The notes under the pieces: generated by a model
What the model was told of the DNA's origin: nothing
Seen by the model: the letters and a program-made list of their open reading frames with translations, nothing else
Database searches by the model: none
NCBI GenBank assembly: GCA_016218825.1
Contig: JACRCV010000018.1
Location: forward strand, 1 to 47,351
Direction of reading: 5' to 3'
From: Deltaproteobacteria bacterium
Lineage (GTDB): Bacteria; Myxococcota; XYA12-FULL-58-9
DNA length: 47,351 nt
Shown here: positions 20,731-44,224 of the stretch, piece by piece
Layout: each line of letters begins with the position of its first letter
Numbering within the stretch: the first letter of the stretch is position 1
Program-made: the position numbers and the translations under genes

Positions 20731-22203
20731 ATGGGCCAACAGGTTCGCAAACGCCGCGAGATCACTCTGGTCAAAGCCCCGGGGCTGAATGAACAGCCCA
20801 AGCGCCGGCCCAAGGGACGCGGGTGGCAGCCGATCCGGATCGCCCGGCTCGGTGCCCGCCCGGTCGCCGCCCCGGCCCCAGACCCGAGCAAACCCGCCGC
20901 TGCCGACCTCGCGAAGACCGCCGCCGGCAAGAGCGAGCTCGAGCCCTCGGTCCAGGACATCGCTGACGAGCAGCGCCTGATCGACGACGAGAACGCGCCG
21001 ACCCCGAGCCCGAGCCGTCAGGTCCCCGCCCCCGGCAAAGATCTGCTCGCGAGCTACATGGAGCAGCTCAGCCACATCCCGCTCTTCACCCCCGAGCAGG
21101 AGGCCGCAAACGCCGCCCACCTCGAGGCGCTGGAGCTCACCACCTGGAGGCTGTTGCTCGCGGTCCCGAAGGGGGCCCACCACCTGAACGCCGAGTGCGT
21201 CGAGGTCGAGGCGCCGCTGAAGCGCAAGATCGAGGCGCTGCTCGAGAGCTACCGGCGCTCGGCCGGTCAGAGCCGCAACCGCAAGCTGCCGGCCAACAAG
21301 CACCGCGACGTCCTCGCCGCCCAGATCGCAGCCCTCTTGCGCCGCGCCGACTTCGACAAGGAGATGTTGGATCGGGTGGCGCAGAGACTGCGCCGCGAGG
21401 TCTGGGGGCGGCGGGTGCTGGACGGCCGCCCGGCGTTCCGCGTCACCCACAACGACCTGACGGCGCTCGAGCGCGCTCGCGGCGCGGCGCTGCGCGCCCG
21501 CAACGACTTCGTGCGCGCCAACCTCCGCCTGGTGGTCAGCGTCGCCCGCAACTTCCACCACTACCGCATCCCCTTCATCGACCTGATCCAGGAAGGCAAC
21601 GTCGGTCTGATGAAGGCGGTGCACCGCTTCGATCACACCCGCGGCTTCCGATTCTCGACCTACGCCCACTGGTGGATCCGCCAGTCGATCGAGCGCGCCA
21701 TCATCAACAAGGGCAGCCAGGTGCGCCTGCCGGTGCACGTCATCGACTCGCGCCGCCAGGTAGGTCGGGCGAACGCCCGCCTGACCCATCGCCTCGGCCG
21801 GGCGCCGACCACCGGCGAGCTGTCGAAGTCGCTGCACGTCTCGTCGACCAAGGTCGAGGCGATCTTGAACGGCGTGCAACAGGATCCGGTGTCGCTCGAC
21901 GAGAGCATCAGCGCCGACGACCCCCGCAAGTTCTTGGACTTGGTGCGTGACGACTCCAACCCGGCGCTCGACGAGGCGGTGATCCGCGAGAACACCCACG
22001 ATCGGGTCCGCGAGCTGATGGGGATGCTGAACCCGATCGAGAAGGACATCATCCGGCGGCGCTTCGGGCTCGGCGACGACTCCGACCAGACGCTCGACGA
22101 GATCGGCAAGGCCTACAACCTGTCCCGGGAGCGGGTGCGTCAGATCCAGGCCCAGGGCCTGCAGAAGATGCGGCGCATGTGCGAGCGCCGCCAGATCAGC
22201 TAG
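20731..22203 (+). CDS. RNA polymerase sigma factor, RpoD/RpoS type
   Basis: A 490-residue sigma-70 family protein. A basic, Pro/Ala-rich N-terminal extension (1-100) precedes region 1.2 (about 103-125). An unusual insert (about 130-250) follows, then region 2 (about 256-325) with RFDHTRGFRFSTYAHWWIRQSIERAI, where His replaces the usual Thr of STYATWW. Region 3 and a region 4 ending in LSRERVRQIQAQGLQKMRR complete it. Region 1.1 is absent, favouring a non-essential group 2 sigma. No clear Shine-Dalgarno precedes the ATG. Its stop shares the CTAG with that of the convergent PFK gene (22200-22203). Confidence 0.92.
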   Translation: MGQQVRKRREITLVKAPGLNEQPKRRPKGRGWQPIRIARLGARPVAAPAPDPSKPAAADLAKTAAGKSELEPSVQDIADEQRLIDDENAPTPSPSRQVPAPGKDLLASYMEQLSHIPLFTPEQEAANAAHLEALELTTWRLLLAVPKGAHHLNAECVEVEAPLKRKIEALLESYRRSAGQSRNRKLPANKHRDVLAAQIAALLRRADFDKEMLDRVAQRLRREVWGRRVLDGRPAFRVTHNDLTALERARGAALRARNDFVRANLRLVVSVARNFHHYRIPFIDLIQEGNVGLMKAVHRFDHTRGFRFSTYAHWWIRQSIERAIINKGSQVRLPVHVIDSRRQVGRANARLTHRLGRAPTTGELSKSLHVSSTKVEAILNGVQQDPVSLDESISADDPRKFLDLVRDDSNPALDEAVIRENTHDRVRELMGMLNPIEKDIIRRRFGLGDDSDQTLDEIGKAYNLSRERVRQIQAQGLQKMRRMCERRQIS

Positions 22204-23393
22204 AGCAACTCGGCGACCGGCATCTTGCCGACGAGCGGCGCGAGGTACTCGCGAAACTTGTCGCTGACGTCGCTGTCCCCGAGCAGGAGCTCGGGCGGCA
22301 TCACCCGGGTCTTCGCGGCCACCGCGGTGAGCGGGATGAGCTCGAAGCCGGCCTTGTAGGGCTTGTTGCTCTTGCGCTTGATCGCGATCGAGCCCTCGAG
22401 CACGCCCTTGGCCGCGAAGCTCGCCGCGACCTGGCCGACCTTGCGCGCCTCGGCGCGGTCGACGACGCTGACGCAGTCGGGGAACGAGCGCTGCAGGTAC
22501 CCGAAGGTGTCGGCGCGCACCCGCTTGATGCCGAGCCGCTTCTTGACCTCCGCCGCCAAGAAGTCGCCGAGCGCCCCGGTGCCCGAGAGCTGGACGTTGC
22601 CGTGCGCGTCCTTCTCGACCTGCTCTGCGAGCTTCGCCGCGATCGGCGTCCCCTGCGCGTCGTGGATCCCCTCGGAGACCGCGATCAGGCAGCGGCCCTT
22701 CTCCTTGTAGATCCGGTCGACGTCGGCGATGAACTTGTCGACGTCGAACGCCAGCTCCGGCACGTAGATCAGGTGCGGGCCGTCGCCCTCGTGGGCGCGG
22801 GCGAGGACACTCGCGGCGGTCAGAAAGCCGGCGTGGCGGCCCATCACCACGTTGATCTTGACCCCGGGGAGCGCGGCGTTGTCGAGGTTGTCCCCCAAGA
22901 ACGCACAGGCGACGAAGCGCGCCGCCGACGGGAAGCCGGGGGTGTGGTCGTTCTCCTTCAGGTCGTTGTCGATGGTCTTCGGGACGTGCAGCGCCGCGAG
23001 CTCGTAGCCGGCACGCTTCGCGAGGTCGTTGACGATGCGGCAGGTGTCTGAAGAGTCGTTGCCGCCGATATAGAAGAAGTAGCGCACCCGGTGGCGCTCG
23101 AACGCCGCCAGGATCTTCTGGCAATAGGCCTCGTCGGGCTTGTCGCGCGACGAGCGCAACGCCGAGGAGGGTGTCACCGCGACCCGACTGAGCCGCCCCT
23201 TCGCGACCTTGGTGAGATCGATGAAGTCGTCGTTGACGATGCCGCGCACCCCGTGGTGCGCGCCGAGGATGCGGCCGATGCTCTTCACCTTCTGCAGGCC
23301 CTCGACCACGCCGACGAGCGACTGGTTGATCACCACGGTGGGCCCGCCCGATTGCCCGATGACGGCGTTGACGTGCTTCGTGCTCGCGGACAT
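22200..23393 (-). CDS. pfp: PPi-dependent 6-phosphofructokinase
   Basis: A 397-residue PFK-fold enzyme phosphorylating fructose-6-phosphate, reversibly, with pyrophosphate. GGND at 110-113 places Asp where ATP-PFKs have the second Gly, and PKTIDND at 138-144 carries the lysine typical of PPi enzymes. MGRHAGF at 184-190 is the fructose-6-phosphate site. AAGGAGG lies 7 nt before the ATG. It lies 97 nt downstream of mutM on the same strand and may be in its operon. The gene at 26730 encodes a second, divergent PFK-like protein. Confidence 0.93.
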   Translation of the reverse strand: MSASTKHVNAVIGQSGGPTVVINQSLVGVVEGLQKVKSIGRILGAHHGVRGIVNDDFIDLTKVAKGRLSRVAVTPSSALRSSRDKPDEAYCQKILAAFERHRVRYFFYIGGNDSSDTCRIVNDLAKRAGYELAALHVPKTIDNDLKENDHTPGFPSAARFVACAFLGDNLDNAALPGVKINVVMGRHAGFLTAASVLARAHEGDGPHLIYVPELAFDVDKFIADVDRIYKEKGRCLIAVSEGIHDAQGTPIAAKLAEQVEKDAHGNVQLSGTGALGDFLAAEVKKRLGIKRVRADTFGYLQRSFPDCVSVVDRAEARKVGQVAASFAAKGVLEGSIAIKRKSNKPYKAGFELIPLTAVAAKTRVMPPELLLGDSDVSDKFREYLAPLVGKMPVAELL

Positions 23394-26729: not shown

Positions 26730-28223
26730 ATGGCAAGAGCGCTGACCTTCGATGCCAAGGATCCGCAGTTGTTCCAACTCCTGCGCCGGGTGCAGCCGCT
26801 CAAGAAGCTCACCGACAAGGAGATCTTCAAGCTCCAGAGCATCCTCAAGAAGGTCGAGTACGAGGCCGGCGAGACGCTGTTCTCCGAGGGTGACTTCGGC
26901 ACCTGCGCCTACGTGGTCGCCGACGGCGAGCTCAGCCTCGAGCGCTGGGGCCACACCATCAAGCGCTTCGGCGCCGGGGCGCTGTTCGGCGAGATCGCGC
27001 TCGTCGACGACCGGCCGCGGACCGGGACGGTGCGCGCCGCCAAGAAGACCGTGCTCTATTGCATGGAGGGCCGGGATCTCGAGGACGACGAGCGTCTGGC
27101 GCCGGGCATCGGCCGCAAGATCTACCAGGGGTTCTCGCGCCAGCTCGCCTCCTACATGCGGGAGGGCGCGGACCTGTTCTGCGAGATGGACGTGCTCATC
27201 ATCCAGGACGGCGGCTGCGCCCCGGGCTACAACCCGGTGACCGCGTTCGTCACCGAGTACCTCGAGAACATGGGCCGCCGGGTGTTCATCGCCGCCGAGG
27301 GCTTCAAGTCGGTGGTCGCGAACCGCACCGAGGACTACCGCTGCCTGATCCACGACCTCGAGCGCTTCTCGCACATGGATCACATCTCCGGCGTCGAGTC
27401 GTCACGGCCGCTGCGCGACCGCCGCGGCGCCGACTTCCGCTCCGAACGCTTCCCGGAGTTCAAGGAGGCCGCGAACCAGGAGCGCGCGGTGAAGGCGATC
27501 CTGGAGCGCAAGGTCAAGGTACTGGTGGGCATCGGCGGCAACGGGACCCTGGCCGGGATCAAGGCGCTCGCCGACCGCCTGCCGCCGGAGGTGTTGATCT
27601 ACTTCGTCCCGGTGACCATCGACAGCGACGTCTACGGCACCCACAGCATCGGCGAGTTCACCGGCGTCGAGGTCGGCGCCGAGAAGATCCGCTGCTACAT
27701 GGCCGATGCCCGCACTCACAAGCGCTGCTACATCATCGAGATGATGGGCGCCGACGGCGGCTACCACGCGCTGCACTCGTGTCTGGGGGCCGGCGCCGAT
27801 CTCGCGGTGCTCCCCAACTCCAACCTCGACCTCAAGAAGATCGCGGCCGCGCTCGCCCGCCGCACCGAGGCGGTGATCGTCGTCGCCGAGGGCTACAAGG
27901 CCAAGGAGCGCAAGGCCGCGGGCTACAAAGGCAACGCCGCCGAGTTCTTCCGCGACGAGCTCGTGGCCGCCGGCCCGCAGGCGCCGATGCGCCTGATCTG
28001 CGAGCCGTTCTCCCGCGACGTCCGCGGCGCCTCGCCGAACAACATGGACATCATGCTGTCGCTGCGGATGGCGCGCAAAATCGGCGAGATGGTGGAGAAC
28101 AAGGAGTCGCGGCGGATGCCGGCGGTGCTCGCCGAGCGCGAGTACAGCATTCCGCTCAGCGAGATCCGCACCGACAACTCGGTCGAGTCGAGCCTCGCGA
28201 CCCTGGGGTCCCGCCTCGTCTGA
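26730..28223 (+). CDS. Fusion of cNMP-binding domain and phosphofructokinase-like domain
   Basis: A 497-residue protein. Residues 20-130 are a cNMP-binding beta-roll with an intact phosphate-binding cassette: FGEIAL at 86-91 and RPRTGTV at 95-101 (E88 and R97 as expected for cAMP/cGMP binding). Residues 150-480 are PFK-like: DGGCAPG near 161-167, GGNGT at 269-273, TIDSD at 296-300 (catalytic Asp298 kept) and MMGADGG at 338-344 instead of MGRxxG. Gly at 272 resembles ATP enzymes; Val295 replaces the usual Gly/Lys and Asn271 the Mg-binding Asp. It may be a cNMP-regulated sugar-phosphate kinase or a pseudoenzyme sensor. GAGGGGG precedes the ATG. The gene lies 65 nt before nuoJ. Confidence 0.9.
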   Translation: MARALTFDAKDPQLFQLLRRVQPLKKLTDKEIFKLQSILKKVEYEAGETLFSEGDFGTCAYVVADGELSLERWGHTIKRFGAGALFGEIALVDDRPRTGTVRAAKKTVLYCMEGRDLEDDERLAPGIGRKIYQGFSRQLASYMREGADLFCEMDVLIIQDGGCAPGYNPVTAFVTEYLENMGRRVFIAAEGFKSVVANRTEDYRCLIHDLERFSHMDHISGVESSRPLRDRRGADFRSERFPEFKEAANQERAVKAILERKVKVLVGIGGNGTLAGIKALADRLPPEVLIYFVPVTIDSDVYGTHSIGEFTGVEVGAEKIRCYMADARTHKRCYIIEMMGADGGYHALHSCLGAGADLAVLPNSNLDLKKIAAALARRTEAVIVVAEGYKAKERKAAGYKGNAAEFFRDELVAAGPQAPMRLICEPFSRDVRGASPNNMDIMLSLRMARKIGEMVENKESRRMPAVLAEREYSIPLSEIRTDNSVESSLATLGSRLV

Positions 28224-31572: not shown

Positions 31573-32277
31573 ATGCGAGAGGCCGTCCGCGTCGCGCCTT
31601 CCATCCTCGCCGCCGATCACGCGCGCCTGGGCGACGAGATCCGCGCCGTCGCCAAGGCCGGCGCCGATCTCATCCACGTCGACGTGATGGACGGCCACTT
31701 CGTCAAGAACCTCACCCTCGGACCGCCGGTGATCAAGTCGCTGCGCAAGACCACGAAGGTGCCGTTCGACGTCCATCTGATGATCGAGCGTCCCGAGGAG
31801 AGCGTCGCCGCTTACGTCGACGCCGGCGCCGACCGCCTGACGATCCAGGCCGAGGCCACGGCGCACCTGCACCGCGCCCTGGCGCAGATCCGCGAGCTCG
31901 GCGCCAAGCCCGGCGTCGCCATCAACCCCGCGACCCCGCTCTCGAGCATCGTCCACGTCCTGCACCTGGTGGATCTGGTGCTGGTGATGACCGTCAACCC
32001 GGGCTTCGGCGGTCAGACCTTCATCGCCGAGGTGATGCCCAAGCTGCGCGCCCTCAAGGCGCTGGCGGCAAGACGCCACCTCGGCTTCGACCTCGAGGTC
32101 GACGGCGGCATCGACTCCAAGACCGCGGCGGTCGCCGCCGCCCACGGCGCGAACGTCCTGGTCGCGGGCTCGGCGATCTTCTCGCAGAAGAGCTACGGCC
32201 CGATCGTCAAGGCGTTGCGCCAAAGAGCCGCGCAGGCCCGGTTGGTGCCGGCGCCGCTCACCGACGCCCTGGTCTGA
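31573..32277 (+). CDS. rpe: Ribulose-phosphate 3-epimerase
   Basis: A 234-residue TIM-barrel enzyme interconverting ribulose-5-phosphate and xylulose-5-phosphate. Motifs are VAPSILAADHARL, HVDVMDGHFVKNLTLGP, DVHLMIERPE, MTVNPGFGGQTFI and DLEVDGGID, containing the metal ligands and the catalytic Asp pair. The ATG at 31573 lies 8 nt after the nuoL stop, so it is probably read through from the nuo promoter. Confidence 0.97.
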   Translation: MREAVRVAPSILAADHARLGDEIRAVAKAGADLIHVDVMDGHFVKNLTLGPPVIKSLRKTTKVPFDVHLMIERPEESVAAYVDAGADRLTIQAEATAHLHRALAQIRELGAKPGVAINPATPLSSIVHVLHLVDLVLVMTVNPGFGGQTFIAEVMPKLRALKALAARRHLGFDLEVDGGIDSKTAAVAAAHGANVLVAGSAIFSQKSYGPIVKALRQRAAQARLVPAPLTDALV

Positions 32278-32313: not shown

Positions 32314-33894
32314 TCAGCGCGGCAGTCCGCCGAAAGGCCCGCGGGCGCCGATCAAGAGCGGCAACAAGGCCGTCAACCCGCCGCCCTGGAGCTCGCCGCC
32401 CATCAGCTGCAGCACCGGCCCCATCAGCTCCCGCAGTCCCTCGATCTGCCGCAACATCCCGAGGCCGTGTTTCTTGATGCCGTGCACCATGAACATGCTC
32501 TCGCGGTAGTCGGCGCCGAACGCCGGTTTCGGCAGCAGGTGGTCGGGGACCGACGGCAAGAGCGACGCGAGCAGCCGGTTGGCGCCGAGCGCCTTGAGCG
32601 CCGGATGCACGCGGATCATCTCGCCCCAGTAGTGCATCCCGAGCTCGTGGTCGCCGCTCTCCTTGGCGACCGCGGCGATCGGCGCCGCCGGATTCTGGAA
32701 CTCGGTGTTGAGGCCGGAGCGCATCTCCGGCACGAACACCCGCACCACCGGGATGGTGAGCGGCGGATAGCTCTTGTCGATCACGACGACGGTGTAGCCC
32801 TTGGCCTCGAGGGCGCCGACGATCAGCTCGATCTCCTCTTTGATGTCGGATCGCGCCACCGACGGCACGCGGCCGACCGGGATCACCCCGGTGGTGTCGC
32901 GCAGGACCTCGGGGTTGTAGAGCGCGTGGAAGCCGAGGTTGCCGATCGGCAGCAGGGCCTGCAGGCCTTTGAAGTCGGCGCCGAAGCGCTCCTGGACCTT
33001 GCACATCCACGAGAAGCCCTCGAAGTACTCGGAGAGCGCACGGATGATCGCCTTCTCCGGATCCGGGTGGCAACCGTGACCGACGCCCTCGTAGGTCAAG
33101 AGACCCTCGTCGGCCGGCCGCGTGCCGCGCACCACCATCGACGGCACCCCGAGGTCCGAGGTCATGTCGACCACCGACCAGCGGATGCCGTTGTTCTCTC
33201 CGGTCTGCAGCACCTCGCGAAGCAGCGGGTGTGTGAGGCTCGTCAGATCGATCGACGCCCCGAGCCGCTTCTCCATGTGCAACCGAAAGATCGTCTCGCG
33301 CTCGATCACCTCGCACAGGCCCTGGAGCACGGCCTCCTCGAACCGGTTGCCGGACGCCAGGCCGTTCGAGGAGTACAGCATGTTGTGCCAGTTGAGCGGG
33401 TAGTAGTACGGCGAGCCGTCCACGAGCCGCGTGCCCAAGACCCAGCGCAGCCGCGTCCGCAGCAGATCCCTTTCGTAGGGCTCACGCTCGGTGAGAAACG
33501 GGAAGTTGCTGAGGAAGTAGGAGGCCGGCACGGTCTCGACGCCGGTCGCGACGATCTCGGCGTGGGTCGCCAGACGATACCCGGGCGCGTGCTCGTAGTC
33601 GAAGTGGATCCAGGAGTAGCGCTCGGCGAGCTCCATGATGGCGCTCGCCTGCGCCTGCTCCGCGGTGAGCCCCTTGCCGCTGGCGTTCAACGTGCCGCCG
33701 GCGCTGGTGTAGGAGAAGGCGCCGTCGATCGGCCCGGCGCGGGCTTCGAGCTTGACGCCGCCCAGGTCCGTCATCTGGCCGAGCTTCGCGGCGGCGTTCG
33801 CCACCGTGGTCGCGGGATCGACCGCCTTGTCCTGGTCGTAGGCGTAGCCCTTACGGACGCTCTCGAGGTGCAACTGTGGCGCTACCACGGTCAT
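32314..33894 (-). CDS. YcaO-domain protein
   Basis: A 526-residue YcaO-fold enzyme; the family phosphorylates amide backbones with ATP to make azolines, thioamides or amidines. ATP-binding motifs are present: SAIMELAER at 84-92 (S-x3-E-x2-ER) and NGLASGN ... QGLCEVIERE ending near 200. The third block RALSEYFEGF lacks the usual final Q-x-R. The C-terminus GPFGGLPR has no PxPxP, as in non-azoline YcaOs. No TfuA, E1-like or dehydrogenase partner is adjacent. It is last in the operon, 29 nt after the M1 aminopeptidase stop, with GAGGAG before the ATG. The substrate could be a ribosomal peptide or a protein; unknown. Confidence 0.9.
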   Translation of the reverse strand: MTVVAPQLHLESVRKGYAYDQDKAVDPATTVANAAAKLGQMTDLGGVKLEARAGPIDGAFSYTSAGGTLNASGKGLTAEQAQASAIMELAERYSWIHFDYEHAPGYRLATHAEIVATGVETVPASYFLSNFPFLTEREPYERDLLRTRLRWVLGTRLVDGSPYYYPLNWHNMLYSSNGLASGNRFEEAVLQGLCEVIERETIFRLHMEKRLGASIDLTSLTHPLLREVLQTGENNGIRWSVVDMTSDLGVPSMVVRGTRPADEGLLTYEGVGHGCHPDPEKAIIRALSEYFEGFSWMCKVQERFGADFKGLQALLPIGNLGFHALYNPEVLRDTTGVIPVGRVPSVARSDIKEEIELIVGALEAKGYTVVVIDKSYPPLTIPVVRVFVPEMRSGLNTEFQNPAAPIAAVAKESGDHELGMHYWGEMIRVHPALKALGANRLLASLLPSVPDHLLPKPAFGADYRESMFMVHGIKKHGLGMLRQIEGLRELMGPVLQLMGGELQGGGLTALLPLLIGARGPFGGLPR

Positions 33895-33923
33895 GTCGGG
33901 CTCCTCGGAGCCGTGGCCGGCAA

Positions 33924-35696
33924 TCAACCGGAGAGCTGCTTCTCGAGGCCGCCACGGGCGATCGGGTGGTAACGATCCTTGTTGGCCGCGAAGATCTCCT
34001 TCGCGAGCGCCCGGGTCTGTTGCCCCTCCGCGAGGGCCTTGTAGATCGGCTTCAGGAACTTCATCCGGCCGACGTGACCCAAGAACGCGGCGAGCTTCGC
34101 GAACGCCGGGGTGTAGTTGGCGCGCGCCGCCATCACCAGCCACTTGCACAAGATCTCGGCGTTCCCGGAGTCGTTGAAGTGGAACGTCTGATCGAGCCAG
34201 CGACAATCGTCCTCGCCGACCTTCTTCGGCAGCGCCCCGAGGTAGACCAGCCACTCGTCCACCGACCATTGTTTCGCGGCTTTGGGATCCGGCCGGGCGC
34301 CGGTCGCCCAAGCGGCCGCGAGCGCCTGGAGCTCTTCGAGGCGCTTGGACGAAAACGCCGGGGCGTTCGCCGGGATCCCGGGCTCGTACACCCAATCGCG
34401 GGCCCCGATCTTCTGGGCGACGCCGGGCAGCGCCTCGTCCATGAAGGTCAGGAACTCCTCGGTGGTGATCGAGGTGAACGCGAAGCGGTCGGTGTAGGCG
34501 CGGACAAAGGCGTCGATCTTCTTCCGCCCGACCGTAGCCTCCAAGAGGGCGACGAACAGAAAGCCTTTCTCGTAAGGCACCTGGGAGTAGACGTCGTCCG
34601 GATCGATGCCGGCCAGGTCGGTCTTGAGCTTGGTGAACGGCGAGGTCATGCCGAAGCGCTCCAGATCGGCGTTCAAGCTGTCCCGGCCGATGGCCGCGGC
34701 GAGCGCCAGCGCCTCTTCGCCCTGCAGCGCCTCGTGGATACGACGCTCGGCCCAAACGGTGAAGCCTTCGTTGAGCCAGAAGTCGTTCATCGTCGCGTTG
34801 GTGACCAGGTTGCCGGTCCACGAGTGGGCGAGCTCGTGCGCCAGCACGTTCACCAGCGACTTGTCGCCGGCGATCAAGGTCGGGGTCAGGAAGGTCAGGC
34901 GCGGGTTCTCCATGCCGCCGTAAGGGAACGCCGGCGGCATCACCAAGAAGTCGTAGCGCTCCCAGCGATAGGGTCCGAAGAGCTTCTCCGCCGCGAGCAA
35001 CATCTCGTTGACGCCGGCGAACTCGCGGGCCGCGGCGCCCAGGGTCTCGGGCTCGGCGTAGACCCTCGAGCGCGGGCCGAGATCCTGGCTCGCGATGTTG
35101 CCGACCGCGAGCGCCAACAGGTACCCGGGGATCGGCTGCGGCATGTCGAAGCGGTAGGCCACGGTCTGGTCGCTGCCGCCCGCCTCCTTCTTGCCGGGCG
35201 CCGCCGACATCACCGCGACCAGACCCGCCGGGACGGTCAGGCGCGCCTGGTAGGCGAAGCGCACCATCGGGCTGTCCTGGAGCGGCAACAGCGACCGGGC
35301 GTGGTGCGGCTGACACTGGCTGAACAGGTACGGCGCCTTGCCGCCGGCGGTGTGTTGCGGCTCGAGCCACTGCAACGCCGAGGCCGAGGGCGAGGTGGCG
35401 TAGTGGACCGTGACCTTGGTCGTCGGCGCCGCGAGCTGCAACCGCAGGCGGGTGCCCAGCACCGGGTCCGGCGTGCCGCTCTCGAACGCGACCGCAGCGC
35501 CGCGGTCGTCTTTGACGCCGTCGATCGTCAGCGCGCGACTGTCCAAGTCGAGCGGGCCGCCGACCTTGGCGGCGAAGGTCAAGGTGGCGCTGCCCTTGAG
35601 CTGCCTGTTCTCGAAGTCAACCGCGAGGTCGAGCTCGACCTTGGCCACCCGGCCCTGGCTGGTGTCGGTGTACGAATGTGGATCTTTGGTCGCCAC
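33924..35696 (-). CDS. M1 aminopeptidase, leukotriene-A4-hydrolase type
   Basis: A 590-residue zinc aminopeptidase. GGMEN is at 260-264. The zinc site is HELAH (287-291) with E310 in NEGFT. Y375 in VPYEKG is the catalytic tyrosine. QCQPHHARSLLP (about 127-138) and the helical C-terminal domain ending YHPIARGGLEKQL mark the LTA4-hydrolase subgroup. No signal peptide is present, so it is likely cytoplasmic. The start is a GTG at 35696 with GGAGG 5 nt upstream; no ATG precedes it, and 77 nt separate it from the GHKL-like gene. It lies directly before the YcaO gene. Confidence 0.93.
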   Translation of the reverse strand: MATKDPHSYTDTSQGRVAKVELDLAVDFENRQLKGSATLTFAAKVGGPLDLDSRALTIDGVKDDRGAAVAFESGTPDPVLGTRLRLQLAAPTTKVTVHYATSPSASALQWLEPQHTAGGKAPYLFSQCQPHHARSLLPLQDSPMVRFAYQARLTVPAGLVAVMSAAPGKKEAGGSDQTVAYRFDMPQPIPGYLLALAVGNIASQDLGPRSRVYAEPETLGAAAREFAGVNEMLLAAEKLFGPYRWERYDFLVMPPAFPYGGMENPRLTFLTPTLIAGDKSLVNVLAHELAHSWTGNLVTNATMNDFWLNEGFTVWAERRIHEALQGEEALALAAAIGRDSLNADLERFGMTSPFTKLKTDLAGIDPDDVYSQVPYEKGFLFVALLEATVGRKKIDAFVRAYTDRFAFTSITTEEFLTFMDEALPGVAQKIGARDWVYEPGIPANAPAFSSKRLEELQALAAAWATGARPDPKAAKQWSVDEWLVYLGALPKKVGEDDCRWLDQTFHFNDSGNAEILCKWLVMAARANYTPAFAKLAAFLGHVGRMKFLKPIYKALAEGQQTRALAKEIFAANKDRYHPIARGGLEKQLSG

Positions 35697-35773
35697 TGCT
35701 GCCTCCAGCGTCGCCGGCTCCCGCCCGCCGGCAACCCTATCGAGTTTGGCGCCGGTTGCAAGCCTGAACTGCG

Positions 35774-37366
35774 TCAGGGAGTCGGGCCGGGCGTGAACAG
35801 CGCCGCCTGCAGCTCGGTCTTGCCGCCGCCGAAGCCGTCGTGGCCGCCGAAGAGGACCGCCATCAGCGGGTAGAGCATCCCGGGATCGGCCTCGAGGGCG
35901 CGCGCCATGCGCTGCAGCTGCGGGTGGCGTCGCGGCACCAGCAGCACGAAACCGCTCCCGAAGCGGCGCGGCGCGAGCGGCAGGCGGCCGTGCTCCACCA
36001 ACGCCACCCGCGTCAGCCGCGACAGCCCCGGGGTCAAGGTCGGCAGCACGTAGCGCCCCGAGGTGAGCAGCGCCTCGATGGCCCGGATGACGCCGCGCTC
36101 GGCGTCGGCCCAGAAGCTCTCGTGAATCGGACGGACGCCCATCAGCCCGGCGACGAACCCGCGCCCGTACTGTCGCACCCGGGAGGCTCCGGCCGCGACC
36201 TGCGACCACACCGCCGCGGCCAGGCGGCGCCGGTAACCGGCAGGCGGCGGCTCGACCGTCAAGCCGAACGCGCGCAACAGGAACTCGCGCTCGTAGCCGT
36301 CCAACACCAACGTCCGCCGGCCGCCGTCCTTGCCGTCGGCGCCGCGCCCCGGAGGCTCGACCGCCCAGAGGACGCCGTCGGTGCAAAGGGAGCGGACCGT
36401 CTGCAGATCGACTTGCGCGCCGGAATCGGTGCGAAACAGCGGCACCCCGGCGAGGAGCTCCAGCCGCCCCGCCTGCAGCGCGTAGCGCAGCAGCAGGCGG
36501 CGGGCGCAGTCCTGATCCGCGACGCTCATCGACCCCAGCAGGGCGGCCAGTCGGACGTACAACGTGTCGCGCACCTCGCGCACCAGGTCGTGGACGACGC
36601 GGAGGTCGACGGCCGGGGCTCGCGCCCGGGCCTTGTCGCGCACCACCGCGAGGTGCACCGCGCCACGCCGCGACGCGGTGTAGACCTCCTTGGCCACGAC
36701 CTCGCCGACGACCACGATGCTGCGGCTCAGGTCAGCATGCCGGGGCAACCCTACCCGGCACGACAGGCGCGGGGTCTCGACGGTCAGCTGCACCAGACAG
36801 TCCGGCAGCGCCGGCCCGCGGCTCGTCGCCCTACCGTCCAAGAAGACCGGGACACTGGCGTAGGCGAGCTTCTCTCGCAGCGCCCGGCGGAGGACGCGCC
36901 GCGACCCGGAGCGAGCGACGGTCAGCACCAGCCCCGGCGACGTCGGCCGGCCGATCACCGCCCCCGGCGCCCTGCCCCTGCAGAAGACGAGGGTCATCGC
37001 TCGATCCGAATCGCTCACACCGAGCGACGCCGTGGGCGCGGCCAAAAGCGCCAGCAGGCCGACGCCGCAGCTCACCTCGAGCTCGACCAGCGCCCGGTGA
37101 CGCGCCGCGACCGCGCAACCGGGATCCGCGAGCACCGCGACCGCTTCGAACGCCCCGGACGGCATCGCGCCGCCCGGGGCCGCGACCCGGACCCGTCGCC
37201 GCCCGAGGTCCACCTGCACCGCGATCGCACCGCTCTGGATCGCAAACCGACAGACCTCGGCCACGGTCGCCACCTCGTCCTCGAGCTGCCGGCCGCAGAG
37301 CTTCTGCACCTCGGCCTCGACGTCGATGCTGAGCAGATCCGCGGCGGTCACCCGGGGCGCGGTCAT
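35774..37366 (-). CDS. Degenerate GHKL-like protein, relative of its upstream neighbour
   Basis: A 530-residue protein. Residues 20-110 parallel the GHKL ATPase domain of the upstream gene: EVCRFAIQSGA (37-47) matches ELAQNARDAKA but lacks the Mg-binding Asn and the Asp, APGGA (63-67) matches DDGHGM without Asp, and SCGVGLLALL (99-108) matches GCFGVGFWSVL. ATP binding is therefore probably lost. The C-terminus (RRFGSGFVLLVPRRHPQLQRMARALEADP) resembles the C-terminal domain of the same neighbour (KRYVAVHWRHPEVQDRLALLASDP). It may be a regulatory partner. Its ATG overlaps the upstream stop (ATGA), so the two are translationally coupled. No transmembrane helix is evident. Confidence 0.85.
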   Translation of the reverse strand: MTAPRVTAADLLSIDVEAEVQKLCGRQLEDEVATVAEVCRFAIQSGAIAVQVDLGRRRVRVAAPGGAMPSGAFEAVAVLADPGCAVAARHRALVELEVSCGVGLLALLAAPTASLGVSDSDRAMTLVFCRGRAPGAVIGRPTSPGLVLTVARSGSRRVLRRALREKLAYASVPVFLDGRATSRGPALPDCLVQLTVETPRLSCRVGLPRHADLSRSIVVVGEVVAKEVYTASRRGAVHLAVVRDKARARAPAVDLRVVHDLVREVRDTLYVRLAALLGSMSVADQDCARRLLLRYALQAGRLELLAGVPLFRTDSGAQVDLQTVRSLCTDGVLWAVEPPGRGADGKDGGRRTLVLDGYEREFLLRAFGLTVEPPPAGYRRRLAAAVWSQVAAGASRVRQYGRGFVAGLMGVRPIHESFWADAERGVIRAIEALLTSGRYVLPTLTPGLSRLTRVALVEHGRLPLAPRRFGSGFVLLVPRRHPQLQRMARALEADPGMLYPLMAVLFGGHDGFGGGKTELQAALFTPGPTP

Positions 37367-40287
37367 CGCCCCCCCCCGAACACCGTCCAGGCGGCCCGCG
37401 CCCGCAGGCGCTCGGCGCCGACCGCCAAGAGCGGCGAGCGGTCCAGGAGCCAGTCGAGAAAGACGAACAGCCCACGCGCCGGATCGGACGCCAACAGCGC
37501 CAAGCGGTCCTGGACCTCGGGGTGGCGCCAATGCACCGCGACGTAGCGTTTGGGCCACGGCGCGCCGGCGGGCAAACGGACGCCGCTCAGGTCGACGTCC
37601 AAGGTCGCGACGGTCTCGAGCCCGGCACACGCCAGGCACCGGACCCCGGGGACCACGTCACGAAGCAGCGCGTTCACCGGCGCCAGCGCGAGGTCGGCAC
37701 GCTCGGCGTCGGCGGCAGTGCGCGCCGCGGGCCGCACCCGATCGATGCCGTCGAGATCGATCGCGCGCCCGAGCACGTCCATCACCTCTTTGAACGCCAC
37801 GTGCGCCGCGTCCAGCACCGGGGTCTTGCGGCGCGCCGCCAACAGCGCCAACTCGGAGTGCCGACGCGACAGGTAGAGCGTCGCCGCCGCGGCGCGGGCC
37901 ATGGTGTCGGCGAGCGACATCGGCGGCCCAAGGAGGGTCGGCAACGCCGGCCGCTGCCAGACATCGGCGATCTTGGACCACACCTCCGGATGCAACACCG
38001 CGTCCTTCAACAACCGGGCGAGCGCGCTCTCCGCCTCGGTCTGACCACCGCGAGCGACGAAGCGTCCGCGCCAAGCCCCGCGCCGCCACCAGGAGAACAA
38101 CGCCGCCACCGCGACGAGACCGCAGAAGACCCCGAGCCGGAGCGGCCAAGCCTTGCCGGTCTCCGCCTCCAGCGCGAGCACCGCCGCCGGTGAGGCGACC
38201 GCAGGCGTCGGTTGCGGCGGCGCCTCGGGCGGCGGTGCCGGGGCGGCCGGCGCCGGCACTGCAGCAGACGCGGCCCGCAGATCTCCCTGGGCGGCGCTCT
38301 GGGAGGACAGTGGGGGGGCGGCCGTAGCCGGGGGCAGCGGCGCGGCGGGCGGCGGCGCCCCGGTCGCATCCACGGCGTGCCAACCGGCGTCGTAGTACTC
38401 GGTCCAGGCGTGCAGCTGCGGCCGGGCGTGGCCGTCTTTGGCGGCGATCCCCAGCACCATGCGGGCCGGGATCCCGGCGCTCTGCAACAACAGCACGTTG
38501 ACGCCGTTCTTGACGTCGCAGTCTCCGGCGCCGGCTTCACTGACCCGGCTCAGCCAATCGGCGTTGTCGGTGGCGTAGCGCGCCGCCATCTGCGGCGAGA
38601 CGTCGTAGGTCAGAAACCGGCGCACGAAGCGCGTCAGGCGCCCGGCACGTTGCCGCCGCGAGCTGCCGGCGCTCTCGGCGACGGCGCGCCGGAGATCCTC
38701 GGGCAGCTGCACCGCCGGCGGAACGACGCGCGGCTCCGGCCCGGCGACGAACGCGCCGGTCACGTACTCGAGGACGCCGGCGTCGCCCTTCGGCAGCTGC
38801 ACCAGCGGCTCGTCGAAGTCGTTGATCTGAAGCCCGTCGACCATCTTGCCGTCGAACCGTACCGAGGCGCGCACCAAGCGATGGCCCGTCGGCACCGGCA
38901 CGACCAACGGCTCGGCGCCGGGCACCACGGTGAGCCACACCCGGACGCAGTGGCGGTCGCACCGATGGGCGGGATACGCCCGGGCCGGGCCGGAGACCCC
39001 ACGGACGAAGCCGTGGACGCGGTCGTAGCGCGACAAGACCAGCGCCGCGAACAGGATCTCCTTCGGGCCATCGTAGGTCAGATCCCAGGCGCCGACCCGC
39101 GGATCCGGCACCTCGACCGTCGCGCCCTCGTAGCCGTTCAGGTTGGTGTACGGCAACAGCTCCGACACCGGAGCCGAGCCGCCCCCGAAGTCGACCGGCG
39201 ACGAGTCACCGCCACCGGGCAGCGCATCGGCGGCGGCGGGCGACGGCGGCCGCGGGTACCCCACCACCACGACGGCGACGGCCATCGCCACCGCCAACCC
39301 GGCGGCGACACCCGCGGCGACGCGCAGCGCCGCGGCGCGAAACGCGGCCGAGAACCTCTTGACGGTTTCCCACGGGGTCTCGGGGCGTGCGGCGCGCGAC
39401 AGCTCGCCCACCAGCCGCGCGAGCTGCGAGCGCGCGACGCGCGTCAGGCGACGGAGCGCTTGACTCGCGACCGGGCGGGAGCGCGACATCACCAGGTCGA
39501 GACGATTGCTGTTGAGGATGATCGCCGGCGCCAACCCCCCGGCCAGTCGCTGGTACACCGGCACCGACGGCGAGGCCTCCAGCTCCTCCAACACCGTGGC
39601 GGTCATCACCAGGAGCCCGGAGGCGTAGAGCTCGACCTTCGGGAGCTCGGCGAGCCCCACCGCGCCCTCGGCGTCCCGGGTCCGAAACGACAGCGACGCG
39701 ACGCCCGGGGCGACGAGCTCCTCGTTGACGCACTTGCCGTTGACCCGCACCCACAGCGGCTCGAGCGGCCGGCCGGCGCGACGCAGGTAACGACAATGCC
39801 GCCGCAACGCCAAGCCGACGTCGGCGGCGAATCGCTTGCCGTCCCCGGCGACGGGCCGCCGCAGGGTCACCCGGGTGCCCACGGTCTTCATCCGGCACGG
39901 GATGACCTCCACGTGATCCAGCGACGCGGACAGCCGCACGCCCCACGGCGCGCCGCGGCTCCGGGACTCGACCTCGATCAACGTCGGGTTGAAGCGCAGC
40001 ACCGACCAGAAGCCGACCCCGAAGCAGCCGGCGGCGTCCGGCTCGTTCTCCTTGCTCGACGCGTACAGCCGGAACAGGTAGGCGCGGGCGTGCGCGAAGT
40101 CCATGCCGTGGCCGTCGTCCTCGAAGCTCAGCCATTCCTCACCGGCCTCTACCCCGGCCAACACCGAGATCTGGCCGGCCTTGGCGTCGCGCGCGTTCTG
40201 CGCCAGCTCGCGGAGAAACACCCACGGGTCCTGCCCGTAGCGGAGCGACTCCTGAACGGCGCGCGCCTTGAAGTCGGTCCTGGCCAT
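37363..40287 (-). CDS. GHKL ATPase fused to periplasmic transglutaminase
   Basis: A 974-residue protein with a rare architecture. Residues 1-120 are an Hsp90/MORC-type GHKL ATPase: ELAQNARDA (E27, N31, D34), DDGHGM (57-62) and GCFGVGF (87-93), all intact. A transmembrane helix follows (about 319-343). Residues 550-645 are a transglutaminase-like domain with the triad C589 (GDCD), H625 (HAWTEYY) and D639 (DATG). A Pro/Ala linker (645-705) leads to a second helix (about 714-733) and a 240-residue C-terminal domain shared with the downstream gene. With two helices, the ATPase and C-terminal domains should be cytoplasmic and the transglutaminase periplasmic. TGGAG lies 5 nt before the ATG. It is first in a four-gene operon. 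Confidence 0.92.
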   Translation of the reverse strand: MARTDFKARAVQESLRYGQDPWVFLRELAQNARDAKAGQISVLAGVEAGEEWLSFEDDGHGMDFAHARAYLFRLYASSKENEPDAAGCFGVGFWSVLRFNPTLIEVESRSRGAPWGVRLSASLDHVEVIPCRMKTVGTRVTLRRPVAGDGKRFAADVGLALRRHCRYLRRAGRPLEPLWVRVNGKCVNEELVAPGVASLSFRTRDAEGAVGLAELPKVELYASGLLVMTATVLEELEASPSVPVYQRLAGGLAPAIILNSNRLDLVMSRSRPVASQALRRLTRVARSQLARLVGELSRAARPETPWETVKRFSAAFRAAALRVAAGVAAGLAVAMAVAVVVVGYPRPPSPAAADALPGGGDSSPVDFGGGSAPVSELLPYTNLNGYEGATVEVPDPRVGAWDLTYDGPKEILFAALVLSRYDRVHGFVRGVSGPARAYPAHRCDRHCVRVWLTVVPGAEPLVVPVPTGHRLVRASVRFDGKMVDGLQINDFDEPLVQLPKGDAGVLEYVTGAFVAGPEPRVVPPAVQLPEDLRRAVAESAGSSRRQRAGRLTRFVRRFLTYDVSPQMAARYATDNADWLSRVSEAGAGDCDVKNGVNVLLLQSAGIPARMVLGIAAKDGHARPQLHAWTEYYDAGWHAVDATGAPPPAAPLPPATAAPPLSSQSAAQGDLRAASAAVPAPAAPAPPPEAPPQPTPAVASPAAVLALEAETGKAWPLRLGVFCGLVAVAALFSWWRRGAWRGRFVARGGQTEAESALARLLKDAVLHPEVWSKIADVWQRPALPTLLGPPMSLADTMARAAAATLYLSRRHSELALLAARRKTPVLDAAHVAFKEVMDVLGRAIDLDGIDRVRPAARTAADAERADLALAPVNALLRDVVPGVRCLACAGLETVATLDVDLSGVRLPAGAPWPKRYVAVHWRHPEVQDRLALLASDPARGLFVFLDWLLDRSPLLAVGAERLRARAAWTVFGGGR

Positions 40288-40324: not shown

Positions 40325-40353
40325 AGTGTACCAAATCCGGCGGACATTGCCGG
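40325..40353 (-). promoter_or_regulatory. Promoter for the GHKL-transglutaminase operon
   Basis: On the minus strand CCGGCA (40353-40348) and TACACT (40330-40325) are 17 nt apart; the -10 matches four of six consensus bases and is preceded by GG. The predicted leader is about 30 nt. A CCGGCGG direct repeat overlaps the -35 and spacer. Confidence 0.4.
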
Positions 40354-40393: not shown

Positions 40394-41128
40394 TCAGATG
40401 GCCGGCAGGGCGCCGTACTGAGCAGTGAGGCGGCGATAGCGCTCGGTGATCTTCGCGGCATAGAAGTCGACGACGTCGCTCGGCAGGCGGCCGTGCTGGC
40501 GCAAGATGTAGCGCGTCGCCTTCGGACCGCGGTTGTAGGCGGTCAGCGCCACCTCGAGACGGGGGAACTCGTGCCGCAGGTGATCGAAGTAGCGCGCCCC
40601 GAGCCGGACGTTCAAGACCGGATCGAAGCTGTGGCTGTCGGGCCAGTCGAGGTTGGTCTCGGCGGCGGTCCACAGCGCGGTCTCCGGCATGATCTGCATC
40701 AGGCCTTCGGCGCCGCGCGGCGAGATCGCGAGGTGGTCGTAGTAGCTCTCGACGTGGATGATCGCCAGAAACAGCAGCGGGTCGAAGCCCAAGCGCGTCG
40801 CTTCGTCACACAGCGCCTGCGCCACCCGCAGGCCGTCCCGCTCGCCCAAGGTCCGGGCGTGCTGCAGGAGCTCGGCGGCGACCGCGTCCTGGCGATTGAG
40901 CACCACGACCGGTCGCGGCAGGACCACCTCGAGCCCGGCGGCGAACTCGCCCGGATCTCGCGGCGCCCACGCGCCCACTCGGGAGCGCGCCCGCAACAGC
41001 CCGGCGACCTCGTCGGCGACCGCGTGCGGCGTCGACGCGACCGCCAGAGCGCCGACCGCCAGCGCCAGCCCGGCCCTCGCCCAAAACGGCAAGAACCGCC
41101 CGTCGCCGCTCGTTGCCCGTCGCGTCAT
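40394..41128 (-). CDS. Secreted lytic transglycosylase (Slt type)
   Basis: A 244-residue protein with a twin-basic N-terminus and signal peptide (MTRRATSGDGR, then FWARAGLALAVGALAVAS). The catalytic domain (about 100-240) has HVESYYD (catalytic Glu), SPRGAEGLMQIMPETA, RYFDHLRHEF and LTAYNRGP, the signature of Slt70-like glycan-strand lyases. GGGAG lies 5-6 nt before the ATG at 41128; an ATG at 41173 would put 15 residues before the twin-Arg. It lies 107 nt upstream of the GHKL-transglutaminase gene, which has its own promoter. The 238 nt upstream (41129-41366) hold no gene I can identify. Confidence 0.92.
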   Translation of the reverse strand: MTRRATSGDGRFLPFWARAGLALAVGALAVASTPHAVADEVAGLLRARSRVGAWAPRDPGEFAAGLEVVLPRPVVVLNRQDAVAAELLQHARTLGERDGLRVAQALCDEATRLGFDPLLFLAIIHVESYYDHLAISPRGAEGLMQIMPETALWTAAETNLDWPDSHSFDPVLNVRLGARYFDHLRHEFPRLEVALTAYNRGPKATRYILRQHGRLPSDVVDFYAAKITERYRRLTAQYGALPAI

Positions 41129-41366
41129 CCCGCTCTCCCTACCTGCTTCGGAAACGACCTTGTCGCTGCCCATGATATTGGACGCCCCGTGCTCTACACG
41201 CTTCACCCACGGGGTGGGATACAAACCCACGCGCCCATACCACACCGATCCGACATCCGACAGGGATCACGAACCAGGAGGAAAACAGACCCACGTACAG
41301 AACGTTACCGGGACTGGTCGAGGGGGTGTCCTATTGGCGCAGCACTAGCGGCCCCCACAGCGAGCG

Positions 41367-42225: not shown

Positions 42226-42639
42226 CTACGACTGCGCGTCGGACGCGGTCGTCTTCGTCGACTTCTTCAAGCCGTCGACCTTCTTGCGCAGCGACGCCAC
42301 CTGGGCCTCGAGGTCTTTCAGGTCACTCTTGGTGACGATCGGCAGGTTGCCGATGACCCGCTGCACGGTCACTTCCACGCGTCGCTCGACCTCGCCCTTC
42401 GCGTCGTTCAAGGCCGACACCGTGTCGCTGTGCCGCACGCGATCCCAGAGGTTGTTGGCCTTCATCCGGCCGAGCATCTCGTCGAGGCGCTTCTTCACCT
42501 CCGCCGGCGCCAAGCCCCGATCTTCGATCAGGTGCCGCACCGTCTGGGCGACCCCGTCCTCGGCGTCCATCATCTCGCGCGCCTTCTTCTGCAGACTGTG
42601 AAACAGCTCCTCCGCCCGCTCGCGTGCCTTGTTTGCCAT
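42226..42639 (-). CDS. Phasin-like coiled-coil protein
   Basis: A 137-residue, highly charged helical protein. The N-terminal helix (ERAEELFHSLQKKAREMM) is amphipathic. The C-terminal SKSDLKDLEAQVASLRKK-type heptads (here TKSDLKDLEAQVASLRKKV) resemble PHA-granule phasins and related coiled coils. No phaC or phaZ is nearby, so it may be a structural or membrane-associated coiled-coil protein instead. It lies 46 nt upstream of the lipoprotein gene. Confidence 0.75.
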   Translation of the reverse strand: MANKARERAEELFHSLQKKAREMMDAEDGVAQTVRHLIEDRGLAPAEVKKRLDEMLGRMKANNLWDRVRHSDTVSALNDAKGEVERRVEVTVQRVIGNLPIVTKSDLKDLEAQVASLRKKVDGLKKSTKTTASDAQS

Positions 42640-42745: not shown

Positions 42746-44224
42746 TCAAGAACAACGAGGCGCGCCGGTCTGGCGGCTTCGGTCGACACCTCGGCGCCGG
42801 GCACGGCAGCGAACGGTCGCCGCCACGACCCCGAGGGCAGCGGTTGCGACCGGCGTGCCGAGCCCCGGGGCGTGACAGGCACAGCCACCGACCAGGACAT
42901 CGTGGTCCGCCGCCGCGCCCGTCGCGTCACCGCCGGCCGGTGCTTCTCCGCCCGGGCCCGCGTCACCCGGCGGTGGTCCGCCGTCCGCGCCGCCGTCGCC
43001 GCGCCTGCCGTCCGCCGCCGGCCCGCTGTCGATGCTCCAGGCGTTGTGGGTGCAGATCCCGACCGCCCCGGTCCCGCCGCAGTACAGCGAAGCGCACTCG
43101 AGGCTGTGGGTACACGGTTGACCGTCGGCCGCCGGGCCGGGCGGCCGACAGAGCCCGGGGTTGCCGGCGCCGGCGCCGCCATGGCAGATCGTGCCGGGCA
43201 CGGCGCTGCAGTGGGAGTCTTGCACGCAGGTTCGCCGACAGCGGAACTTCCCGTCCAGGTCCCGCACGCAGTACCAGTTGGTCCCACCGCAGTCGGCGTC
43301 GAGCACACAGTCTGCGTAGCCGACGTGACACAGCGCGCCGCGCGTGGCCATCACGTCTTGGCGACAGTAGGCCGCCGCCGGACAATTGGGACTGGAGACG
43401 TTGCAGCTCTGGGTGCAGAACCCCGGCGCGGTGCCGGGCGCCTGGTCGAGGCCGGTGTAGCACGCGCCGCTCGAGCAGTCGGCGCTCGCGAAACACGCAC
43501 CGCCGAAGCCCACGGCACCGGTGACGCAATCGGGCGGCACACAATGGGTGCGCACGTCGGTGCCGCCGAAGTAGCCCCCCATGAACAACGGGCAGTCACC
43601 GTCCGTGCTGCACAGGGTGGCCGCGGCCGGATACAGGTAACAGACGCCGCGGATGTCGTCGTCGCTCAGGGTGCGGTCGAGGGTGAGCCCCTCGCTGTAC
43701 CCCCAGTACATCGTCGCCTCGGGAGACGGGCCGTGCGCCAGACCCACGACGTGCCCGAGCTCGTGGGTGAGGACGCTCAGGACGTCGTAGGCCTCGGGGT
43801 CGCCGTTCGTGGCCCAGACGAAGTCCTGCTCGTTCACGGTGATGTCGGCGTCGAGCCACTGCTGGGGCGACACCCCGGTGTCGCGGCGTTGCTCGGTGAG
43901 CGCCACGACCCCGGCGGGGCCGGTCCAAGAAGTCAGAAAGGAGATCCGGTTGACGCCGTCGTTCGTCGAGCCGCCGGTCGACGACAGCCCGGCGTCCACG
44001 AAGCCAAAGGCGGCGCACGCCGGCTGCCCCCACGCCGTGAGGGCGGCGCGGATCGCGACCAGATCGCTGCCGTCAGTGATGCCGCCGGCCCCGTCCGCTT
44101 GGATCGAGATCGACACCGCAGCGGACGGCCACTTGATGGGCGCCAAGGTCAATGGATCGCGGATCACCGCAAAGCCGGCACACGGGAGGGCCAGCCCGAT
44201 CAGGCACAGGCGCGAGGCGCTCAC
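42746..44224 (-). CDS. Secreted matrixin metalloprotease with MYXO-CTERM-like tail
   Basis: A 492-residue protein with an N-terminal signal (RLCLIGLALPCAGFAV). The zinc site HELGHVVGLAH is at 154-164 (HExxHxxGxxH) with a Met-turn near M172 (TMYWGY). Residues 205-400 are a Cys-rich region with about 28 cysteines in EGF/'CxxDxxC'-like spacing. The C-terminus has an Asp/Gly/Pro linker, then GGCACHAPG, a hydrophobic run (VATAALGVVAATV) and RCRARRRG, matching the MYXO-CTERM sorting pattern, with 13 extra residues after it. It starts at GTG 44224, overlapping the previous stop (GTGA), so the two are coupled. Confidence 0.93.
   Translation of the reverse strand: MSASRLCLIGLALPCAGFAVIRDPLTLAPIKWPSAAVSISIQADGAGGITDGSDLVAIRAALTAWGQPACAAFGFVDAGLSSTGGSTNDGVNRISFLTSWTGPAGVVALTEQRRDTGVSPQQWLDADITVNEQDFVWATNGDPEAYDVLSVLTHELGHVVGLAHGPSPEATMYWGYSEGLTLDRTLSDDDIRGVCYLYPAAATLCSTDGDCPLFMGGYFGGTDVRTHCVPPDCVTGAVGFGGACFASADCSSGACYTGLDQAPGTAPGFCTQSCNVSSPNCPAAAYCRQDVMATRGALCHVGYADCVLDADCGGTNWYCVRDLDGKFRCRRTCVQDSHCSAVPGTICHGGAGAGNPGLCRPPGPAADGQPCTHSLECASLYCGGTGAVGICTHNAWSIDSGPAADGRRGDGGADGGPPPGDAGPGGEAPAGGDATGAAADHDVLVGGCACHAPGLGTPVATAALGVVAATVRCRARRRGVDRSRQTGAPRCS

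Follow-up and report, generated by a model that had tools for sequence, protein, structure and literature searches.

Among described proteins, the GHKL ATPases of the Hsp90/sacsin/MORC type (HATPase_c_3, P_loop_sacsin) are the natural point of comparison for the locus analysed here, and for sacsin and Hsp90 a catalytic arginine has been described (PMC9880540). Prokaryotic GHKL proteins of the paraMORC/HEF_HK kind are mostly soluble and sit with restriction-modification genes (PMC8011034), and plant MTOPVIB is a GHKL relative whose ATPase motifs have diverged and which works within a complex (PMC11077084). TgpA of Pseudomonas aeruginosa has a transglutaminase-like domain at the inner membrane, where it faces the periplasm (PMC3507681). 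A literature search of open-licence papers returned no description of a membrane protein in which GHKL and transglutaminase domains are fused, nor of a pseudo-ATPase partner for such a protein.

The window is one whole contig of 47,351 nt (G000:C108). Four intact minus-strand ORFs follow one another in it: g1 (37363..40287; 974 aa), which combines a GHKL ATPase domain with a transglutaminase-like core, g2 (35774..37366; 530 aa), a predicted soluble and degenerate GHKL paralogue, g3 (33924..35696; 590 aa), an M1 aminopeptidase, and g4 (32314..33894; 526 aa), a YcaO protein. The g1 and g2 genes overlap by 4 nt (ATGA); g2 and g3 lie 77 nt apart, and g3 and g4 29 nt. The ORF coordinates thus agree with the preliminary description, as does the spacing, and its domain calls for g1, g3 and g4 were confirmed with Pfam and NCBIfam. 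The promoter that it placed at 40325-40353 did not hold up: the best hexamer pair there matches 7/12 positions, which is reached or exceeded by 111/400 random 82-mers of the window, and a scan with consensus promoters returned nothing at this site. A convergent plus-strand gene ending at 32277, which by eye reads as a ribulose-phosphate 3-epimerase, closes the downstream side of the locus. The window also contains two phosphofructokinase genes, at 22200-23393 on the minus strand and 26730-28223 on the plus strand, the second being fused to a cyclic-nucleotide-binding domain.

The g1 protein consists of an N-terminal GHKL domain (aa 1-310; HATPase_c_3, E=2.4e-9), a first transmembrane segment (aa ~323-341), a predicted periplasmic β region with the transglutaminase-like core (core aa 542-641; Transglut_core, E=2.5e-12, PF01841 being above cut-off), a second transmembrane segment (aa ~713-731) and a predicted cytosolic C-terminal domain (aa ~740-974). 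With the Hsp90/sacsin/MORC ATPases it shares the Bergerat motifs ELxQN-RDA, DDGxGM and GxGVGF, although its score against the NCBIfam sacsin model (45.4) is below the cut-off of 50. The N, G1 and G2 motifs of the Bergerat fold are all intact and ATPase activity is predicted. Among the 12 g1 members, 11 have a Pfam GHKL match, the 12th having lost the domain through truncation, and 11/11 members whose sequence spans these positions have E27, N31, D34, D57, D58, G59, G90 and G92. T138 and R269 are present in 12/12 members, and the invariant R269, placed after the domain, is a candidate for the catalytic arginine of sacsin and Hsp90 (PMC9880540), the positional equivalence being putative. What sets g1 apart from the Hsp90/sacsin/MORC proteins is its pair of transmembrane segments, a predicted periplasmic transglutaminase-like insert and a partner without the ATP-binding Asn. 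Like the paraMORC/HEF_HK proteins it has an N-terminal HATPase_c_3 domain, but it is membrane anchored and no restriction-modification genes were found among the scanned neighbours. A function in anti-phage defence was considered and rejected: the one PADLOC hit was to TmtA and covered just part of the protein (aa 19-103 of g1), with no model match beyond the GHKL motif.

The transglutaminase-like core belongs to the transglutaminase-like superfamily, with a Cys-His-Asp triad (C590-H626-D640) that is kept in 11/11 members covering it, and catalytic activity, whether cross-linking or proteolytic, is predicted. Both this triad and the GHKL motifs persist down to about 24-35% identity. According to hydropathy, two transmembrane segments bracket the transglutaminase-like part in every full-length member, and this domain is probably periplasmic while the GHKL and C-terminal domains are probably cytosolic. 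Since the models predicted from individual sequences of the window were of unusable quality (pLDDT 35 and 38), this topology and the pseudo-active site of g2 discussed below are drawn from hydropathy and alignment. A Cys-His-Asp transglutaminase-like domain is common to g1 and TgpA, and PDB entry 6g49, a bacterial transglutaminase domain of solved structure which we take to be the periplasmic domain of TgpA, gives a weak sequence match to the corresponding part of g1 (E=0.0076). The g1 protein also carries a predicted cytosolic GHKL ATPase and comes with a pseudo-ATPase partner; we know of neither an attached GHKL ATPase nor such a partner for TgpA.

No convincing Pfam or NCBIfam match was found for g2, and no member of its family has a Pfam HATPase match. 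Its description as a GHKL-like relative was nevertheless vindicated by profile-profile comparison with sub-alignments of g1 (hhalign), in which the N-terminal half of g2 matches the g1 GHKL domain (prob 96, E=4.4e-9) and its C-terminal half matches the g1 C-terminal domain (prob 84.5, E=7e-6), whereas the periplasmic transglutaminase-like part of g1 does not match the C-terminal half of g2 (E=0.4). Neither score was reached in any of 60 column shuffles, and reversed alignments gave nothing. As read from these alignments, g2 repeats the two predicted cytosolic halves of g1 in the same order and is devoid of the membrane and transglutaminase-like parts. The position equivalent to N31, the N-box Asn that binds ATP, is never Asn in 12/12 members, and in the G1 box the Asp is kept in 8/12 and the second Gly in 1/12. 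Because the ATP-binding Asn is missing throughout, g2 is probably a pseudo-ATPase unable to hydrolyse ATP. It may be likened to MTOPVIB, another degenerate GHKL subunit, albeit one from an unrelated context (topoisomerase VI-like, meiosis).

The preliminary description had suggested that all four genes could form one joint system, of which the g1-g2 link stands, on the strength of gene order and paralogy, and the membership of the M1 and YcaO genes does not. A g2 profile search found orthologues in 13/195 genomes of the phylum, source genome included, and at all 12 junctions that could be read, present window included, the gene immediately preceding g2 is g1; a genome of the same genus (G001) has the two genes on different contigs. 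At each readable junction the g1 stop and g2 start overlap by exactly 4 bases (37363..37366 on the minus strand of the window), which are of the form NTGA, namely ATGA, GTGA or TTGA. In 15 further genomes without g2, a search with the g1 profile found no full-length g1 (0/15). A separate scan of genome contigs with g1 gave only remote GHKL or transglutaminase stretches. Comparison of these sequences thus strongly supports the g1-g2 link and argues for the pair, instead of the four genes, as the unit.

Coupled pairs of GHKL proteins occur more widely, and the membrane transglutaminase form is one variant among them. When the search was broadened to 384 genomes, extra weak matches to the N-terminal part of g2 appeared. 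At five loci (L057, L058, L059, L060 and L061), a soluble active GHKL protein of ~520 aa is followed by a pseudo-GHKL domain fused to ~1500-2000 aa of unassigned sequence, this large part having no convincing Pfam match; the genes of these pairs mostly overlap by 4 nt, and one genome (G024) carries both kinds of pair, its soluble pair being L059. In another family (f7) there are tandem GHKL genes (L017:10059-14259 and L018:12938-16439), one with two transmembrane-like segments as judged by eye, and the second GHKL gene, complete in L017, has a weak WLM/YgjP-like metallopeptidase tail (HELAH). Separately, on a Desulfobacteraceae contig (L003:9884-13833), two adjacent GHKL genes are found near DUF4062-NACHT-WD40 and weakly SLOG-like proteins, in a locus resembling that of a conflict system.

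Around the present pair, the conserved block runs upstream of g1 rather than downstream, a feature overlooked in the preliminary description. An SLT lytic transglycosylase gene on the same strand (40394..41245, minus strand) lies 106 nt from g1 and is directly upstream of g1 also in G001 and in a further genome, G004, where the gap is 13 nt. Farther up, a secreted matrixin (M10) metalloprotease (42746..44224, minus strand) is likewise encoded upstream in both, and between the two in the window is a gene for a phasin-like coiled-coil protein (42226..42639, minus strand), which is near the SLT gene in G001 too; its counterpart in G004 is a weak one and is encoded on the opposite strand. The SLT and matrixin neighbours are conserved only within the order of the source genome. 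At the family f8 loci where it could be seen (L015:3472-5010, L032:6534-8459, L035:5000-6544), the gene just before g1 is a different one. Its product, a predicted membrane protein of at least ~510 aa, has hydrophobic segments near the N-terminus and gave no Pfam hit, so that the partners of g1-g2 vary; an OsmC-like gene follows in some members of this family. By eye, the f8 upstream protein resembles M48 peptidases that have lost the HExxH motif. The earlier suggestion of envelope remodelling is a reasonable guess, because the transglutaminase-like domain is predicted to face the periplasm and, within the order, genes for a lytic transglycosylase and a matrixin are kept upstream.

Our best model, which we hold to be about evenly balanced between right and wrong, is that of an envelope thiol enzyme gated by ATP under the control of a GHKL/pseudo-GHKL pair. 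Its starting points are the domain order, the motifs intact in g1 and lost in g2, the collinearity of the two proteins and the 4-nt overlap, all read from the sequences; from there we infer the topology, complex formation, ATP gating and substrate as follows. The g1 protein would sit in the inner membrane, its GHKL and C-terminal domains facing the cytosol and the thiol enzyme exposed to the periplasm. Translated by coupling to g1, the g2 protein would probably form a hetero-oligomer with the cytosolic halves of g1. ATP would drive closure and opening of the GHKL domains, as set by the pseudo-ATPase g2, and this movement would be passed via the transmembrane segments, switching the periplasmic enzyme (a protease, amidase or cross-linker). 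The latter would then act on envelope substrates alongside the SLT and matrixin enzymes encoded next door. An envelope role is favoured by these neighbouring exported murein and protein hydrolases.

A less probable reading, which we rate as rather unlikely, is that the periplasmic transglutaminase-like domain is a sensor that binds an envelope peptide and thereby alters the cytosolic GHKL/pseudo-GHKL complex, in a manner reminiscent of the way in which histidine kinases are governed by a periplasmic domain. In its predicted topology g1 does resemble a sensor joined to a cytosolic ATPase, and the existence of related pairs without a transglutaminase-like domain indicates a separate function for the cytosolic pair. 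However, no member that covers the Cys-His-Asp triad departs from it, which points to catalysis rather than pure sensing, and neither a HisKA domain nor a response regulator was found among the adjacent genes scanned.

Less probable again is a membrane-anchored Hsp90/sacsin-like chaperone that folds, secretes or inserts envelope proteins such as the matrixin and SLT enzymes, its transglutaminase-like domain trimming or cross-linking the clients. The GHKL domain of g1 is nearest to the HSP90/sacsin-type families, exported enzymes are encoded next to it and the very large pseudo-GHKL partners of the wider family recall sacsin, but the neighbours vary among families and no co-factor domain such as DnaJ was found, leaving this an improbable account when set beside the ATP-gated enzyme.

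Downstream of the pair, g3 contains three M1/LTA4H domains according to Pfam (leuko_A4_hydro, E=9.8e-162), with intact GGMEN and HELAHS...NEGF motifs and the LTA4H C-terminal domain, and its best solved relative is the cold-active aminopeptidase 3cia (E=1.8e-136). With a score of 539.8, it is below the TIGR02411 equivalog cut-off of 761.7, and it is classed here as a predicted cytosolic M1 aminopeptidase of the cold-active aminopeptidase/LTA4H type. It is a neighbour within the genus only and lies outside the conserved unit: apart from the window, G001 alone has an M1 gene behind g2, similarly spaced and on a contig that ends inside it, and the rest of this gene and a YcaO gene were not found elsewhere in that assembly (86% complete). 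As for g4, it has a full-length YcaO domain (1-325/325, E=3.6e-61), and no match at E<=1e-60 besides itself was found in 193 genomes of the phylum, so far leaving the source genome as the sole one with a YcaO gene at this place; a plasmid search returned only remote relatives, with about 25-29% identity among the best matches listed. It does not classify as an azoline-forming TOMM cyclodehydratase (TIGR03604, 109.5 against a cut-off of 219; a GPFGGLPR C-terminus in place of PxPxP; no ThiF/E1 partner among the neighbour genes scanned), nor as a thioamide-type (McrA) protein (TIGR03266, 116.6 against 365; no TfuA partner among the same neighbours). The YcaO gene has no recognised partner and no close orthologues in the phylum, and was possibly acquired recently. 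A RiPP cluster built on the YcaO and M1 genes was also considered and rejected, there being no partner among the scanned genes, no cut-off reached in the azoline and thioamide tests and the intergenic gaps being too short to hold a precursor gene.

Within the g2-g3 gap, promoter-like boxes also missed in the preliminary description, CTTGCA-N14-CGATAGGGT (35734..35762, minus strand), recur in G001, where both boxes and their spacing are unchanged and the M1 start is about as far away. The two elements are identical at 20/29 positions, which is reached by 3/1000 shuffled pairs, and this suggests that the M1 and YcaO genes have a promoter of their own and form a separate downstream unit. That all four genes are one system, the GHKL-transglutaminase complex, the M1 enzyme and the YcaO protein acting on one peptide or protein, is thus very improbable in spite of the common strand, the short gaps, the M1 gene behind g2 in G001 and the cytosolic peptide target that YcaO and M1 could share. 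The linkage check that the preliminary description itself had proposed speaks against it, for in phylum genomes outside the genus neither M1 nor YcaO lies beside g1-g2 at any readable locus, G004 has g1-g2 on contig 1 and its M1 orthologue on contig 8, the YcaO protein has no close orthologue in 193 genomes, the element before M1 is conserved and gaps of 29 and 77 nt are too small for a precursor-peptide gene.

The gene set worth studying is therefore g1-g2 with the upstream envelope enzymes, instead of g1-g2-M1-YcaO. Tentatively, and with somewhat less confidence than in the ATP-gated enzyme as such, the pair may represent an undescribed transmembrane machine in which a cytosolic Hsp90-type cycle, tuned by a pseudo-ATPase, gates a periplasmic transglutaminase-like enzyme, and which would form a branch within a larger group of coupled active/degenerate GHKL pairs whose extra parts can be exchanged. 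The invariant coupling to a degenerate copy of the ATPase, repeated with quite different extra domains, defines an uncharacterized family that is amenable to simple point mutations. Enzymes in the periplasm lack ATP there and, if the model is true, tethering such a thiol enzyme to a cytosolic Hsp90-like ATPase within one polypeptide chain would be an uncommon way to energize the envelope.
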